NCBI GenBank assembly: GCA_016124845.1
Contig: WGMW01000064.1
Coordinates: 1 to 39,110, forward strand
Reading direction: 5' to 3'
Source of the DNA: Flavobacteriales bacterium
GTDB taxonomy: Bacteria > Bacteroidota > Bacteroidia > UBA10329
DNA length: 39,110 nucleotides
In this document: positions 157 to 37,467 of the stretch, piece after piece
How positions within the stretch are numbered: the first letter of the stretch is position 1
Layout: each line of letters opens with the position of its first letter
Translations under genes and position numbers: made by a program
Notes under the pieces: model-generated
Databases searched by the model: none
The model's input: the letters and a program-made list of their open reading frames with translations, nothing else
What the model was told of the DNA's origin: nothing

Positions 157-1872
157 ATGAAAACACTTAGCACCTTTTCCGTCATCTCATTTCTGTTTTT
201 CACGTTCAATGTGTCGGCTCAGATAAGTGTCAGCCTGATTGGCCAAAAGACCCTTGGCGGAACAGGACTTGATGTCCCCTCGGCTATTGTAGCAACTATG
301 GATGGTGGCTATTTGGTAGGAGGGGCTTCGTTTTCAGGAATTTCTGGAGACAAGACAGAGAATTCGCGAGGAGATCAAGATTATTGGATAGTCAAATTGG
401 ATGAGCAGCTTACTGAAGTTTGGCAGCATACATTCGGAGGAGATTCTGCGGATGATTTTACATCTATGGTTGCGAATGCCGATGGCACATTCATTTTGGG
501 AGGTAATTCAAGTTCAAATATCTCAGGTGATAAGACAGCACCGAAGAAAGGGTTCTCAGATTATTGGGTTCTCAAGTTGGATGCTGATGGAAATGAGGTT
601 TGGCAGAACACTTACGGGGCGGATCTGGGAGAATTGATGTGGAAAATGATAGCTCTCCCGAGTGGGGACATACTTTTGGCTGGTAGTTCAAATTCCGGCA
701 TTTCAGGTGATAAGACGGCACCATCCAAGGGAGGAACTGATTATTGGCTGGTGGCCATTGATGCCGATGGGAACAAACTTTGGGATAAATCATTTGGAGG
801 AATGGATGACGATTATTCTGAAGATGTGCAAATCTTCGGTGACAAGGTGATTCTTTCAGGTATTTCATGGTCAAACACAAGTGGGGACAAATCTGAAGAC
901 GATTATGGTAGTGGGGATAGTTGGGTTATTGCGCTGGACACGGTCGATTGGAACCCTGTTTGGGATATTACCCTTGGGGGAACTTCATTTGAAATCAAGT
1001 CTCAGATGGCAGTTATGTATGGGCGGCTCTTCGTCATGTCAAGTTCAGATTCAGACATTTCGGGTACCAAATCCGAGAATTCGCATGGTTCATCTGATTA
1101 TTGGATTACCTGCTTGGACATGGCTGGAAGTATTTTGTGGGACAGGACAATCGGAGGTGATAGCTATGAAGATCCCCGGTCACTGATTCCTACAACTTAC
1201 GGAAATGTGCTTGCCGTGGGAGGTTCATTATCTGACGCAAGCTATGATAAGGATGAGGACTCAAAAGGTCTTTATGATTTTTGGCCGGTAAGTATTGATA
1301 CTATAGGTAATATTCAATGGCAGGCCACTATCGGTGGTTCAATGGTGGATGTGGCTATTGCTGCAGTAGAGCCATCGCCTGGACGTTTTGTTCTAACGGG
1401 CATGTTAAAATCGGATGCCGATGGTGATAAGACCGAGAATAATCGAGGAGACAATGATTACTGGATTGTAGAAATAGCCACCTCTGTAGGCATCTCCGAG
1501 GCCGACCCATTGGAGCTCAACATGTACCCCAACCCTGCCTACGAGCAACTACAGATAACATGGAAAGATGCCAAATCGAGTTGTGCCGGTCTCATCCAAC
1601 TCTATGATGCCGATGGCCGCATGGTGCAGCAGCAGAACATGCAAACCACCACGGCCACCATTCCCACAGGCCAACTGCCACAGGCCAACTGCCACAGGCC
1701 AACTGCCACAGGGTCTCTACACACTGACCCTCACAGATTGCCAAGGCCACAAGGCCACCGAACGTTTGGTGCGTCTCAAGCGTTAGCATTGACCGAAGGT
1801 CAAACGCCCCCCTCCTTTGAAAGGGCCTGTCCTGAGTTGGTCGAAGGAAGCGTTTCTCAGGTTTGCAACTAA
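157..1872 (+). CDS. Secreted repeat (beta-propeller-like) protein, T9SS sorting domain frameshifted
   Basis: Residues 1-22 form a signal peptide ending in SAQ. The body holds seven repeats of about 55 residues, each with GDKT, DYW and W..T.GG signatures, suggesting a seven-bladed beta-propeller. A T9SS type A sorting domain starts near residue 450 (MYPNPAYEQLQI) and should end with a GLYTLTL...VRLKR strand. That end is present in the DNA, but in another frame (stop at 1784-1786), because a 14-bp unit is tripled at 1664-1712. The annotated reading frame therefore leaves the domain at about residue 507 and runs through unrelated sequence to 1872. As written, the protein would be exported to the periplasm but probably not recognised by the T9SS. 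The exact ligand or role of the propeller is unknown. An assembly or sequencing error is possible, but a tandem repeat is a classic slippage site. Confidence 0.8.
   Translation: MKTLSTFSVISFLFFTFNVSAQISVSLIGQKTLGGTGLDVPSAIVATMDGGYLVGGASFSGISGDKTENSRGDQDYWIVKLDEQLTEVWQHTFGGDSADDFTSMVANADGTFILGGNSSSNISGDKTAPKKGFSDYWVLKLDADGNEVWQNTYGADLGELMWKMIALPSGDILLAGSSNSGISGDKTAPSKGGTDYWLVAIDADGNKLWDKSFGGMDDDYSEDVQIFGDKVILSGISWSNTSGDKSEDDYGSGDSWVIALDTVDWNPVWDITLGGTSFEIKSQMAVMYGRLFVMSSSDSDISGTKSENSHGSSDYWITCLDMAGSILWDRTIGGDSYEDPRSLIPTTYGNVLAVGGSLSDASYDKDEDSKGLYDFWPVSIDTIGNIQWQATIGGSMVDVAIAAVEPSPGRFVLTGMLKSDADGDKTENNRGDNDYWIVEIATSVGISEADPLELNMYPNPAYEQLQITWKDAKSSCAGLIQLYDADGRMVQQQNMQTTTATIPTGQLPQANCHRPTATGSLHTDPHRLPRPQGHRTFGASQALALTEGQTPPSFERACPELVEGSVSQVCN
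1664..1712 (+). repeat. 14-bp tandem repeat, three copies plus a partial fourth, controls reading frame
   Basis: The unit CCACAGGCCAACTG occurs three times without mismatch (1664-1677, 1678-1691, 1692-1705), followed by CCACAGG. With a single unit the sequence reads T-G-Q-L-P-Q-G-L-Y in the sorting-domain frame. Each extra unit shifts the frame by 2 modulo 3, so copy numbers 1, 4, 7 are in frame and 2, 3, 5, 6 are not. The present three copies are out of frame. Confidence 0.9.
1826..1847. repeat. Dispersed intergenic repeat fragment (CPELVEG type)
   Basis: The stretch beginning CCTGTCCTGAG and ending GGTCGAAGG resembles a widespread bacterial intergenic repeat that yields spurious CPELVEG peptides when translated. 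It lies after the ancestral stop codon of the upstream gene (1784-1786), which supports the view that sequence beyond 1786 was originally non-coding. Confidence 0.4.
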
Positions 1873-1911: not shown

Positions 1912-1944
1912 AAAAAGCCCCGCACATATCCATGTGCGGGGCTT
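1912..1944 (-). terminator. Rho-independent terminator of the coiled-coil gene
   Basis: A perfect 12-bp stem (1915-1926 with 1933-1944) encloses the loop TATCCA. Read on the minus strand it is followed by a run of five T (1912-1916), correctly placed 22 bp after the stop codon of the minus-strand gene at 1966. Confidence 0.85.
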
Positions 1945-14907: not shown

Positions 14908-16392
14908 ATGGTGTCACGTTTTACAATTCTATTTGTACTTATCACTTCGTGTGTTCAAGCTCAAACACTACTTCAATCGGGTGAGATAATTGGTGGTCGG
15001 CCAACACGTATTCCAATCGATTATTCTGGAAATTCGGTAAACTCGATTGAACTGGTTACGGTCAATAACTACAATATTGCTGCTACCCAAGTCTATGCTT
15101 TTAATGTCAATGCATTGGGCGAATTGATATATGCGGATACCCTTCAATTCGCTGAAGTACTTGACACGTTGGGAAACGTTGAAATGAGACAGCACCAGTA
15201 TCAGTATGGAGTTACCGTTGGTGGAATGGTCATTCTCGCGGGTTTGAGTCACAGGACGGTCATGCCATTTGTCCCAAAAGTGATTTGCGCTGGAGGGTTT
15301 GGGTCATATTCTCCTTATGCAGGATGGATAGATAGGGATTATTATGTTTTCAATTGGCAATTCTCTCCAGTTGGAGTTGAATATAATCGGTTTGATCCAA
15401 GGTTTGTGAGTTACGCAACCTCACAGCACCCGAACAACGAAGGAGTAAGAATTACTGGAGCCTTCAATCGATTTGAGGGAAGCTCGGTGCTATTGGACGT
15501 GTATGACATTTATCCAGAAGAGAGTTTGCCTACGCATAAGCTTTTCAGTCTGCCGCTTGAAACAACATTTTTCATCAATCATTCAATCGAACTTGACCGA
15601 AAGCTATTGCTTTCAGGTTTTTGGGTTGATATGGATGCAGGGTTCTTGAAACGTCCCAAGGCTGTTCTGATCGATCTTGAAAGTCAAGAAGTCCAAGAAT
15701 TGATTTTAGACCAAACTGAATACCACGTAGAGGTAATTTCGGGTTTGGTCGCTGACAGTGACCGTTGTTTTTTGATACTCAGGGAAACAGACAATAATGG
15801 ACAACTGGTGGAGAGCAGAATACTTCGTTTTGATGCAAATACCAATGCCAACGTCATCGCTTCATTTTCAAGTCAATTTGTTCCTGCCAGCATAGTAAGC
15901 GAGACAAGTAATGGAATCCTTATTGGGGGAGATTATAACCGATTCGGTCTGAAAACGGCATCTGTTTTTGAGGTGAATGGGTATGCAGAAGCAGAGCCTG
16001 AGATGATTGGCTATGCAGAACTGGGGGAAGTGGCTACGAGTTTCAAAGGATATGAAGAAACGTTGCTGGGTAATTTCCTTGTCGGAACCTACGATTCATT
16101 GAATGGGACACCGAAAGGATCGTTCATGACCCCAATTCTTGGACAGTCATTGCTGTCAGTTGGTGAGAGGCGAACGGAAGATTTGGCCACTCTTTTAGGG
16201 GACATGCTTTTTATTAAGTCAGCGGAACCTGTACAGCTCAGGGTATTTGATTTGGAAGGTAGGATTTTCCTTGCTGAGAAGATTAATTCTGGTCCAAAAG
16301 ACCTATCGCATCTTGTGAATGGAGTTTACCTCATTTCCGTTTGGAATAATGAAACAAGACAGACCTTGAAAACTGTTTTCGTCACCCATTAA
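14908..16392 (+). CDS. Secreted protein with T9SS sorting domain, unknown function
   Basis: 494 residues from the ATG at 14908; a longer frame opens at 14863 but lacks a clean signal peptide. Residues 1-19 (MVSRFTILFVLITSCVQAQ) form the signal peptide. The body is beta-rich with no catalytic motif recognised. The last 75 residues look like a type A sorting domain (LRVFDLEGRIFL, LVNGVYLISVW, TLKTVFVTH), so it should be exported by the T9SS and released or anchored at the surface. A near-consensus TGACTTTG box at 14868-14875 may be its promoter. It ends 11 bp inside the convergent pth gene. Confidence 0.75.
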   Translation: MVSRFTILFVLITSCVQAQTLLQSGEIIGGRPTRIPIDYSGNSVNSIELVTVNNYNIAATQVYAFNVNALGELIYADTLQFAEVLDTLGNVEMRQHQYQYGVTVGGMVILAGLSHRTVMPFVPKVICAGGFGSYSPYAGWIDRDYYVFNWQFSPVGVEYNRFDPRFVSYATSQHPNNEGVRITGAFNRFEGSSVLLDVYDIYPEESLPTHKLFSLPLETTFFINHSIELDRKLLLSGFWVDMDAGFLKRPKAVLIDLESQEVQELILDQTEYHVEVISGLVADSDRCFLILRETDNNGQLVESRILRFDANTNANVIASFSSQFVPASIVSETSNGILIGGDYNRFGLKTASVFEVNGYAEAEPEMIGYAELGEVATSFKGYEETLLGNFLVGTYDSLNGTPKGSFMTPILGQSLLSVGERRTEDLATLLGDMLFIKSAEPVQLRVFDLEGRIFLAEKINSGPKDLSHLVNGVYLISVWNNETRQTLKTVFVTH

Positions 16393-17628: not shown

Positions 17629-18564
17629 TTAAAAAATGAACTTGGTGCTGATAGACTCGTAATTGTGAGCCTTGCGGATAACATCAGCAAAAAGCGGTGC
17701 GCAACTCAGAACGGTGATCTTCTCGTTCTCTTCGCGAAGCGGAATGGTATCGGTTGTTACCAATTCTGTCAATCGTGAGTTGCGGATATTGTCGTGTGCG
17801 TTTCCTGAAAGAAGTGGATGCGTGATGCATGCACGGACCGTTTTCGCTCCGTGATCCAACATCATTTCAGCTGCTTTGCAGAGTGTGCCGCCTGTATCAA
17901 TGATGTCATCCACAAGCACAACGTCTTTTCCTTCCACATCACCGATAACGGTCATGTCGGCCACCTGATTGGCCACCTTGCGCTGCTTGTAGCAGATAGC
18001 AAGATCCACGTTCAACGCCTTGGCGTAAGCATTTGCTCTTCTGGTACCGCCAACATCTGGCGTGGCCATTACCAAATTATCGATGTTCATGCTGTTTCTC
18101 AGGTGATCCAAGAACAGGTAAGAACCGAAAAGGTGATCCACAGGAACATCGAAGAAACCTTGGATCTGATCGGCATGAAGATCCATGGTCATCACACGGG
18201 TAACGCCAGCAGCTTCCAACAGGTCGGCCATCAATTTGGCACCGATCGGAACACGTGGTTTCACCTTTCTGTCCTGACGCGCCCATCCGAAATAAGGGAT
18301 AACCGCCACAATTCTTTTGGCCGATGCACGCTTGGCAGCATCGATCATCAAAAGCAATTCAAGAAGGTTGTCGCCAGGAGGAAACGTGGATTGAATAATG
18401 AAAACATCATCACCGCGAATGGACTCCTCAAAACAAGGCTCGTATTCCCCATCCTTGAAGCGCAAAGTGGTCTGGCTGGCAAGTTCCGTTCCATAGCTTT
18501 CAGCGATCTTCTCCGAAAGATATTTGGTGGCTTCTCCAGTAAACAGCTTTACGTTAAAAGGCAT
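17629..18564 (-). CDS. prs: Ribose-phosphate pyrophosphokinase
   Basis: 311 residues. It makes PRPP from ribose 5-phosphate and ATP for purine, pyrimidine, His and Trp synthesis. Family segments are complete: FKDGE, YFGWARQDRK, MDLHADQIQGFF, and the PRPP loop VVLVDDIIDTGGTL. First gene of the prs-rplY-pth operon, transcribed from the box at 18595-18602 with a leader of about 25 nt. Confidence 0.97.
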   Translation of the reverse strand: MPFNVKLFTGEATKYLSEKIAESYGTELASQTTLRFKDGEYEPCFEESIRGDDVFIIQSTFPPGDNLLELLLMIDAAKRASAKRIVAVIPYFGWARQDRKVKPRVPIGAKLMADLLEAAGVTRVMTMDLHADQIQGFFDVPVDHLFGSYLFLDHLRNSMNIDNLVMATPDVGGTRRANAYAKALNVDLAICYKQRKVANQVADMTVIGDVEGKDVVLVDDIIDTGGTLCKAAEMMLDHGAKTVRACITHPLLSGNAHDNIRNSRLTELVTTDTIPLREENEKITVLSCAPLFADVIRKAHNYESISTKFIF

Positions 18565-34710: not shown

Positions 34711-34932
34711 ACTGAGGATAAAGCAACATCGACCGAAGAAGTCACACTTCAAACAGAGGAAATACCACTACAAACTGAGGATGACCGACCTTGAACTGAT
34801 ACAAAACCACCTGTAACTGTAGATAACACACACTTAACCGAAGAAGAGCCACCATAAACTGTAGGTAACTCACATTAAACAGTAAAAGACCAACAGTAAA
34901 CTGAGGATGTCCAACTTATAGGCTGAGGATAA
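34711..34932. repeat. Array of degenerate 21-bp phased repeats
   Basis: Ten units start exactly 21 bp apart at 34711, 34732, 34753, 34774, 34795, 34816, 34837, 34858, 34879 and 34900, with an eleventh shifted by one base at 34922. Positions 1, 2, 4 and 15 are the same base in all ten (A, C, G, A), position 16 is C in nine and position 21 is A in nine. The consensus is about ACTGAGGATRACC.AC...A. Between them the other positions vary freely, so these are not recent duplications. Read in the phase of the units the DNA codes Thr-Glu-Asp-like heptads, but stops occur in several units and there is no start codon, so it is not an intact gene. The array lies between a terminator and the gene at 34970. 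Confidence 0.85.
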
Positions 34933-35433: not shown

Positions 35434-37467
35434 ATGAACCTAAACATGACGAAACCAATTTTATCACTTCTTACCGTAGTGGTTAGCTTATTATCTATCG
35501 TAAATGCGAACGGACAGTGGATTGAAACAAATGGTCCGTATAGCGGTGTTGTTCAGACCATGCTTATAGATGGAACAGACATTTATGCAGGAACTAGTAA
35601 TGGTGGAGTATTTTTATCAATGGACAATGGCTCATCGTGGTCAAGAATTAACGATGGTTTAACCAATTACGACATCCGTTCAATAGTCGTAAATGGATCA
35701 AACATTTATGCTGGCACATGGAATGGAGGTGTCTTTTTATCAACCAACAATGGATTGTCTTGGTCGCCTGTTAATAATGGTCTAACGAACGCTTACGTTT
35801 CCTCATTACTGGTCAATGGTTCAACTATATATGCCAGTACAAATGCTGGAGTATTCAAGACAAACAATAATGGTAGTTCTTGGACGGCTGTCAATAGCGG
35901 ATTGACAAGTAATTATACTACCTCTTTGGCAACAGATGGAACGAATATCTATGTCGGAACATCAGGTGGCATATTTGCTTCTTCAAATAGTGGTGCTTCG
36001 TGGACAGCAGTAAATACTGGTCTTTTAAACCCAAGCGTTAAATCAATTGCCACAGATGGTTCAAACCTTTATGTTGGAACTACAAGTGGTGTTTTTGGGT
36101 CTACCAATGGTGGCGCAAACTGGACTGCGTTGAATAACGGCTTGTCTGCTAGTATTAGGTCACTAGCAATAAGCGGCTCAAATGTCTTTGCTGGAACACA
36201 AGATGATGGCGTGTTCTTGTCCTCAGACAATGGTGCTTCTTGGACAGATGTTAATACTGGACTGACCAATTTGTCTGTTTACTCATTAGCAACTGACGGA
36301 ATAAACCTTTTTGCTGGCACTAATTACGGTGGTGTTTTCTTATCAGTCAATAACGCATCTTCTTGGACTGCTGTGAATGAAGGCTTCACAAATACATACG
36401 TTCTATCATTGGCAACTGACGGGGTAAATATTTTCGCAGGAACTATAAATAATGGTGTCTATTTATCAAATAATGAAGGCTCTACTTGGGTCAAAATAAA
36501 TAATGGATTAGGGGATTTTTCGATAAATGCCATAGCAATTCATGGTTCAAATATCTACGTTGGAACTGTTGGACATGGCGCATATTTATCCACGAATAAT
36601 GGTTCGTCTTGGTCTGCGATCAATACTGGATTAACTAGTCCTTCGGTTTCCTCTTTTGCTATTAGTGGCACAACCATTTATGCTGGCACACAAAACAATG
36701 GAATATTTAAGTCTGTCAACAATGGTAATTCTTGGACTGCCGTTAATAATGGTTTAGGGAGCATGACCATTACTGCCTTAACAATAGTCGGGACAAACAT
36801 ATTTGCAGGGACTGGTGGCAACGGTGTCTATTTGTCAACTAATAGCGGTTCATCATGGACAGGTGTAAGCACAGGTTTAACCAACTTTAATGTCAGTTCA
36901 CTTGCCAACGATGGCAACAATATTTATGCGGGAATTTACGGCAGGGTGTTTCTGTCAACCAATAATGGTACAACTTGGACAGGCACGGCAAATACTATTT
37001 CTGGAACAGGTATTAAATCACTCCTCGTAAGCGGTGGAAATGTTTGGGCGGGAAATTCCACAGGTGTTTATCTAACAACAAATAATGGTACAAGTTGGTC
37101 TCAGATAAATACAAATCTTACGACAACAGATGTTCGTTCTTTAGCCTTAGCTGGTTCAAATATATATGCTGGCACGATGGGCGGTTCTGTTTGGAAAAGT
37201 GAGAATGTAATAACAGACATCGACAATACTGACCCAGCGTTATCATCTCATTTCACTGCATATCCTAATCCTGCTCGGACTGAAATAAGCATAACTGGCT
37301 ACAATCCTGCACACATAAAACTGGTCAACGCCCTTGGTCAAGTTGCGGCAACATCTAACCTTAGCAACAAAATATTTGTGGCTGACTTGCCAGTAGGACT
37401 ATATGTATTGCAACTCTTCGACAAGAATGGTCACCAAATCAAGGCGGAGAAAGTAATTATTGAATAG
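35434..37467 (+). CDS. Secreted double beta-propeller (BNR-like) protein with T9SS sorting domain
   Basis: 677 residues from the ATG at 35434; ATG at 35401 or 35446 are alternatives, each leaving a signal peptide ending NANGQ. The body consists of fourteen repeats of about 40 residues with the pattern YAGT.NGGVFLS.NNGSSW..VN.GLTN, that is, two seven-bladed beta-propellers of the BNR/Ycf48-like type. The C-terminal sorting domain starts at TAYPNPARTEISI and ends LPVGLYVLQLF...AEKVIIE, so the protein should leave through the T9SS. The gene is AT-rich compared with the housekeeping genes and sits inside the palindrome-bounded region. A surface adhesion or binding role is likely, but the ligand is unknown. 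Confidence 0.85.
   Translation: MNLNMTKPILSLLTVVVSLLSIVNANGQWIETNGPYSGVVQTMLIDGTDIYAGTSNGGVFLSMDNGSSWSRINDGLTNYDIRSIVVNGSNIYAGTWNGGVFLSTNNGLSWSPVNNGLTNAYVSSLLVNGSTIYASTNAGVFKTNNNGSSWTAVNSGLTSNYTTSLATDGTNIYVGTSGGIFASSNSGASWTAVNTGLLNPSVKSIATDGSNLYVGTTSGVFGSTNGGANWTALNNGLSASIRSLAISGSNVFAGTQDDGVFLSSDNGASWTDVNTGLTNLSVYSLATDGINLFAGTNYGGVFLSVNNASSWTAVNEGFTNTYVLSLATDGVNIFAGTINNGVYLSNNEGSTWVKINNGLGDFSINAIAIHGSNIYVGTVGHGAYLSTNNGSSWSAINTGLTSPSVSSFAISGTTIYAGTQNNGIFKSVNNGNSWTAVNNGLGSMTITALTIVGTNIFAGTGGNGVYLSTNSGSSWTGVSTGLTNFNVSSLANDGNNIYAGIYGRVFLSTNNGTTWTGTANTISGTGIKSLLVSGGNVWAGNSTGVYLTTNNGTSWSQINTNLTTTDVRSLALAGSNIYAGTMGGSVWKSENVITDIDNTDPALSSHFTAYPNPARTEISITGYNPAHIKLVNALGQVAATSNLSNKIFVADLPVGLYVLQLFDKNGHQIKAEKVIIE

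Follow-up and report, generated by a model that had tools for sequence, protein, structure and literature searches.

In the C-terminal phase variation of Helicobacter canadensis and Neisseria gonorrhoeae, a length change that is not a multiple of three near the 3′ end of a gene swaps the C-terminus of its product among three frames, with the body of the protein still being made (PMC2823697; PMC5320596). The tracts responsible are mostly homopolymers, the length of which varies between strains or on passage. Repeat length also decides the presence of a C-terminal sorting signal in Streptococcus agalactiae, this being a Gram-positive cell-wall anchor (Janulczyk et al., 2010, as reported in the citing text of PMC5320596). 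Tandem repeats of longer units are found in the promoters of Mycobacterium tuberculosis, where arrays of about three copies vary clonally at 1e-2 to 1e-3 per chromosome, the switching being seen in reads (PMC12817950). Phase variation as such is recognised by a change at one locus only, which is reversible and frequent enough to be detected (PMC11868660, section 6).

The targeting signal of a T9SS sorting domain (CTD) lies in its last 22 residues, and RgpB of Porphyromonas gingivalis stays in the periplasm when its two C-terminal residues are removed (PMC11285876). Motifs D and E, located in the last CTD strands, contact the T9SS (PMC11285876; PMC10202324). The replacement of RgpB residues 712-714 by an 11-residue PorZ-like stretch leaves export and anchoring normal (PMC11285876, section 2.4); these residues were placed just before the NGVY motif from the sequence of the A719R primer.

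The window analysed here, 39,110 nucleotides in length, is contig C64 of the 4.36-Mb genome (G000) of an environmental Flavobacteriales bacterium. An ORF near its start encodes a protein which matches the SBBP beta-propeller model and, towards its C-terminus, two models of the type A T9SS sorting domain, namely PF18962 (profile positions 1-54 of 75) and TIGR04183 (positions 1-50 of 72). Within the sorting domain lies a perfect tandem array of a 14-bp unit, and the features of the gene and its surroundings are collected in Table 1.

Table 1. Features of the beta-propeller gene, its repeat array and the adjoining region, with positions in the window.
Feature	Position	Strand	Basis or remark
ORF of 571 aa: Sec signal peptide, 7-bladed SBBP-like beta-propeller, partial type A T9SS sorting domain, out-of-frame tail	157..1872	+	Profile matches, predicted structure, Foldseek matches of orthologue
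Predicted Sec signal peptide MKTLSTFSVISFLFFTFNVSA	157..219	+	Read from sequence
In-frame first part of T9SS sorting domain (CTD model positions 2-55)	1525..1681	+	Profile matches
Perfect 14-bp tandem array of CCACAGGCCAACTG, 3.5 copies, in beta5-beta6 loop of CTD	1664..1712	+	Tandem Repeats Finder, direct scan; loop located from the aligned orthologue L032 and its model
7-bp word CCACAGG	1664..1670	+	Repeated at 1706-1712; likely seed of the expansion, judged by sequence and array-free orthologue
Out-of-frame 52-residue tail at 3.5 copies, predicted disordered	1714..1872	+	Frame arithmetic; pLDDT below 50, residues 508-571
Rest of sorting domain: motif D GxY, basic C-terminal strand, VRLKR and stop codon	1715..1786	+	Other frame than body at 3.5 copies
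Stop codon used at 2.5 copies	1725..1727	+	Frame arithmetic
Hairpin terminator-like site, 13 pairs, between ORF 157-1872 and convergent gene 1966-2865	1915..1944	.	Found on - strand; stem nearly symmetrical

The array was recovered both by Tandem Repeats Finder (3.5 copies, period 14, 100% matches, 0 indels) and by a direct scan, and its copies are identical, without drift. The 14-mer CCACAGGCCAACTG occurs at three sites in the whole genome, all of them within the array, and about 3e-15 perfect period-14 arrays of this length would be expected per genome in random sequence of the same composition. Both searches agree with the 14-bp period described in the first-pass annotation of this DNA; the three copies counted there are the three whole units, the real number being 3.5 when the trailing half unit is included.

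At 3.5 copies, no single frame of the ORF spans the whole of the PF18962 or TIGR04183 domain. With a profile built from the genome's own CTDs, the body frame gives the first part of the domain listed in Table 1 and another frame, starting inside the array, gives positions 51-75, so that the two halves of the CTD meet at the array. All three profiles therefore bear out the earlier placement of the repeat in a T9SS sorting domain. With 1.5, 4.5 or 7.5 copies the domain would be complete, reading LYTLTLTDCQGHKATERLVRLKR and ending at the stop codon at 1784-1786. Translation would end after VSTH, four residues past the array, at 2.5 or 5.5 copies, and with the present 3.5 copies, or with 6.5, an unrelated tail is read as far as the stop codon at 1870-1872. 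The 502 codons upstream of the array are translated in every phase, the three frames thus giving three C-termini, and from 3.5 copies the domain is restored by the gain of one unit or the loss of two but not by the loss of one. The reported loss of frame at the repeat is confirmed by this arithmetic together with the split profile match, and the restoring counts of 1, 4 and 7 hold as whole-unit counts of 1.5, 4.5 and 7.5. A frame-altering repeat is thus present at a single locus and, as in C-terminal phase variation, the tract lies near the 3′ end with the body made in all phases.

The part of the domain which is out of frame at 3.5 copies, here termed the cryptic tail, scores 13.3 bits against the CTD tail profile, which is at about the 10th percentile of 146 intact tails (5th percentile 12.1, median 18.5); the tail read at 3.5 copies gives no score against this profile. 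As the score falls within the range of intact tails, the cryptic half has not decayed. No further stop, frameshift or sign of decay was found in the approximately 500 codons upstream of the array nor in the cryptic tail. The genome also encodes the T9SS sortase PorU (1391 bits, over the cut-off); a predicted Sec signal peptide and T9SS machinery are both present, as expected of a T9SS substrate. Promoter-like sites around the ORF are no commoner than in shuffled sequence. Type A T9SS sorting domains above the cut-off number at least 150 in this genome and at least 150 also in that of a congener (G004), and the window itself has two more CTD-bearing genes (16219-16378 and 37258-37461).

The closest homologue found, with 48% identity, is encoded in a Flavobacteriales MAG (JANQJC010000100.1; L032, the same locus as L157). 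It matches PF18962 over positions 1-74 of 75, ends in ...NLGDLSQGVYTVSVLDEILNIASRKIVKLNR and is collinear with the cryptic tail (...TGQLPQ/GLYTLTLTDCQGHKATERLVRLKR) but free of the array. Nearly all other full-length homologues have an intact CTD; as most match the CTD model over its full length, the homologues appear to be T9SS substrates. No such array was found near the 3′ ends of the full-length homologues, all of which are at most 48% identical. The gene has no DNA-level match in eight congener genomes, the best protein matches there having E-values of 1e-10 to 1e-18, and no match among plasmid records. No viral contig was found with 1.5 copies of the 14-bp unit, nor was any same-species sequence with 1.5 copies, and it is for the latter reason that we infer the direction of change. 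The one-copy ancestor sought among relatives following the first-pass annotation was accordingly not observed; the nearest orthologue is array-free, and an ancestor of 1.5 copies is a reconstruction.

The orthologue L032 was modelled with AlphaFold2 together with 12 homologues, giving a propeller and a seven-stranded CTD with a mean pLDDT of 88.5. Foldseek matched the model to beta-propellers and also, with a poor superposition over a greater length, to PorZ. The array aligns with residues 506-511 of the orthologue, which form the loop joining strand 5 (500-505) to strand 6 (512-519); strand 6 together with strand 7 (524-532) has a pLDDT mostly of 67-86. The propeller is predicted with a pLDDT above 90 in the window protein and the orthologue alike, and in the predicted structure at 3.5 copies the window protein is without strands 6 and 7. 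By analogy with RgpB, the array would lie in a loop that accepts insertions, immediately before an export signal of all-or-none character. If the loop tolerates insertion and the signal is all-or-none, three added units (14 residues) could pass, while one or two could not, and an ON state of 4.5 copies with 14 extra residues in the beta5-beta6 loop is plausible on the same analogy.

The reading rated highest, and which we consider rather probable, is a recent slippage expansion of a 14-bp segment, which would at present prevent export but could in principle be reverted. It is placed above both true phase variation and an assembly artefact. The array, its frames, the intact cryptic half of the domain, the lack of the array in homologues and its uniqueness among the sampled CTDs are observed, whereas the slippage origin, recency, loss of export and revertibility are inferred. 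The ancestral sequence would have been CCACAGG-CCAACTG-CCACAGG, that is 1.5 units in which the 7-bp word CCACAGG stands twice, a sufficient seed for slippage. Mispairing between these words may then have added two whole units (28 bp). As the expansion lies in the beta5-beta6 loop, it leaves the synthesis of the propeller and of CTD strands 1-5 unaffected, but the unrelated tail would have taken the place of strands 6 and 7 and, with them, of the GxY and basic C-terminal motifs on which export depends. The product is predicted to cross the inner membrane and to remain in the periplasm. Such retention of an off-state protein, claimed in the first-pass annotation, is backed by analogy with published CTD truncations and stands as a prediction (PMC11285876; PMC10202324). 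The tract is now a perfect repeat and should therefore keep mutating and, since a gain of one unit or a loss of two restores the frame, the change is revertible in principle.

True C-terminal phase variation, in which slipped-strand mispairing at a raised rate would give an exported protein at 1.5 or 4.5 copies and a retained one at 2.5 or 3.5, both states being useful, is a serious contender though an unlikely one. It is in keeping with a perfect non-triplet array in a domain that depends for export on its last part in an all-or-none manner, with an undecayed cryptic half, and with the restoration of frame from 3.5 copies by a single gained unit, whereby the 14 added residues would sit in the loop where RgpB tolerates an 11-residue stretch (PMC11285876). 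To bring 1.5 copies to 3.5, slippage would have had to act twice in succession or once over two units, a hint that the tract is mutable and hence that it switches rather than recording a single accident. Perfect tandem arrays were enumerated over 2.62 Mb (60%) of the genome, and in this portion no other array in a long open frame whose period is not a multiple of three is as long as that at 1664-1712, the runner-up being a 28-bp heptamer array. That the longest such array falls within a signal for surface targeting, and there in the one loop which by analogy is known to be insertion-tolerant, speaks against an accident.

Set against phase variation are the copy number of just 3.5, short for an evolved phase-variable tract, and the lack of the tract in the homologues and in every other sampled CTD of the genome. 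The CTD survey covered 1.82 Mb (42%) of the genome and, among approximately 171 CTDs sampled, this ORF is the only one broken by a frame change. In the 146 full CTDs, the in-register direct repeats are all of 10 bp or less compared with a 35-bp run at 1664-1712, and none carries such a tract, a point raised for checking by the first-pass annotation. Matches in short frames (such as L060, L064, L073, L100 and L124) were set aside as candidates, these being complete or near-complete domains, mostly in small ORFs, or cut by the end of a stretch. The array in a CTD is thus an isolated event and not one of a repertoire: no similar tracts, by which a phase-variable locus may be recognised, were found among the approximately 170 other CTD matches. 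A repertoire is usual for phase-variable loci but not strictly required. VNTR alleles of up to 13 units in Escherichia coli O157:H7 mutate at a constant, low rate, which also weighs against a raised rate here (PMC3777172), although promoter repeats of three copies do vary in M. tuberculosis (PMC12817950). Of the three properties that characterise phase variation, the single altered locus is the only one seen at this site. The fuller claim, that an evolved slippage switch sets for each cell whether the beta-propeller protein is exported by the T9SS or retained in the periplasm, is put forward tentatively and is held to be unlikely; it would work through the position of the repeat, in a CTD loop tolerating extra residues and upstream of the all-or-none export strands.

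It is improbable that the extra copies are an artefact of assembly or library preparation, absent from the cell, with the genome having the 1.5-copy frame. The genome is a draft of 65 contigs and the gene starts 156 bases from a contig end, as might favour such an error, but the array itself lies 1.66 kb from that end. At 49 bp, it is also shorter than a usual short read, so that reads span it. Errors in long reads are mostly small indels and not perfect 14-bp duplications. Ordinary gene decay, in which selection has gone and the frameshift is a first lesion with no reversion to follow, is more improbable still; the lack of a close counterpart in the eight congeners would suit a dispensable gene, but no other lesion is present in the 500 codons or in the cryptic tail. 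The sole difference between gene decay and the preferred slippage expansion is whether reversion matters. That the 52-residue tail is functional, for example by retargeting the protein, can practically be dismissed for, although the frame is open to 1870, the tail is predicted to be disordered, is unlike any CTD and enters a dispersed genomic repeat at 1831-1847. The sequence at 1831-1847 is one of eight genomic copies of the dispersed element CCTGAGYTNGTCGAAGG, through which the out-of-frame tail reads.

A number of other repeats were observed. On the minus strand of L183 (5412-5439; G000:C27, approximately 45411-45438) four perfect copies of CCTTTTT lie in signal-peptide codons (MKKLLLSLLFPFSFFLLPALAQ) and are currently in frame. 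The protein concerned has approximately 1370 residues with YadA-head repeats and a C-terminal Peptidase_S74 domain. A repeat able to break the frame within the leader of what is probably a surface protein calls Opa-type phase variation to mind, and the tract may be a stronger candidate than the array at 1664-1712. In another species of the genus, a metallophosphoesterase-like ORF has a 21-base (CCTTTTT)3 tract in its signal peptide, MKHSIFFSFFLFPFFSVAQ (L212:1501-1521; congener G005:C38:26641-26661); the presence of (CCTTTTT)3 in both species could be convergence from hydrophobic codons. An array of 6.25 copies of ACTTGAAC (L134:7929-7978; G000:C49, approximately 18203-18252) lies directly upstream of an ORF starting at L134:7984, which has no Pfam match, and is possibly a promoter-spacing repeat. 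A 16-bp intergenic array of CTAATTAACTGGTCAG with 3.2 perfect copies sits between two convergent genes (L188:15126-15176; G000:C20). In the window itself, Tandem Repeats Finder also reported a 42-bp unit in 2.1 copies with approximately 79% matches (34815-34903).

Should the switching be real, bacteria with a T9SS would have a new way of varying their surface, by the destination of a protein and not by whether it is made. As each genome here has at least 150 sorting domains, surface variants would arise even if the beta5-beta6 loop underwent slippage only now and then. Should it be a one-off mutation, the locus is still a clear case of a tolerant loop before essential strands holding a frame-breaking repeat. 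If true, the switching would be the first of a phase-variable T9SS targeting signal known to us. A literature search combining T9SS and phase variation found no case, the terms standing in unrelated contexts in passages of PMC3796261, and PMC10450907 being by its topic a review of post-translational modification. The suggestion in the first-pass annotation that such a signal is not commonly described is consistent with this search for the T9SS, but its wider novelty is lessened, as C-terminal phase variation, including the repeat-driven gain and loss of cell-wall anchors, had already been described (PMC2823697; PMC5320596).

With the type A T9SS sorting domain (PF18962, TIGR04183), the locus shares the profile match, the Sec signal, the order of motifs and a PorU in the genome. 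The domain is normally encoded in one frame, however, and in this allele it is split between two. The repeats of M. tuberculosis have larger units and a promoter location, unlike the present array in a coding frame. Compared with the homopolymers of Helicobacter and Neisseria, the tract is a 14-bp unit in 3.5 copies seen in one assembly; the array would act like C-terminal phase variation, membership of which is not claimed as length variation was not seen. By analogy, and as far as the citing text describes that system, the closest counterpart of the array is the loss of C-terminal wall anchors that repeats bring about in S. agalactiae, with a T9SS signal in place of the Gram-positive anchor.
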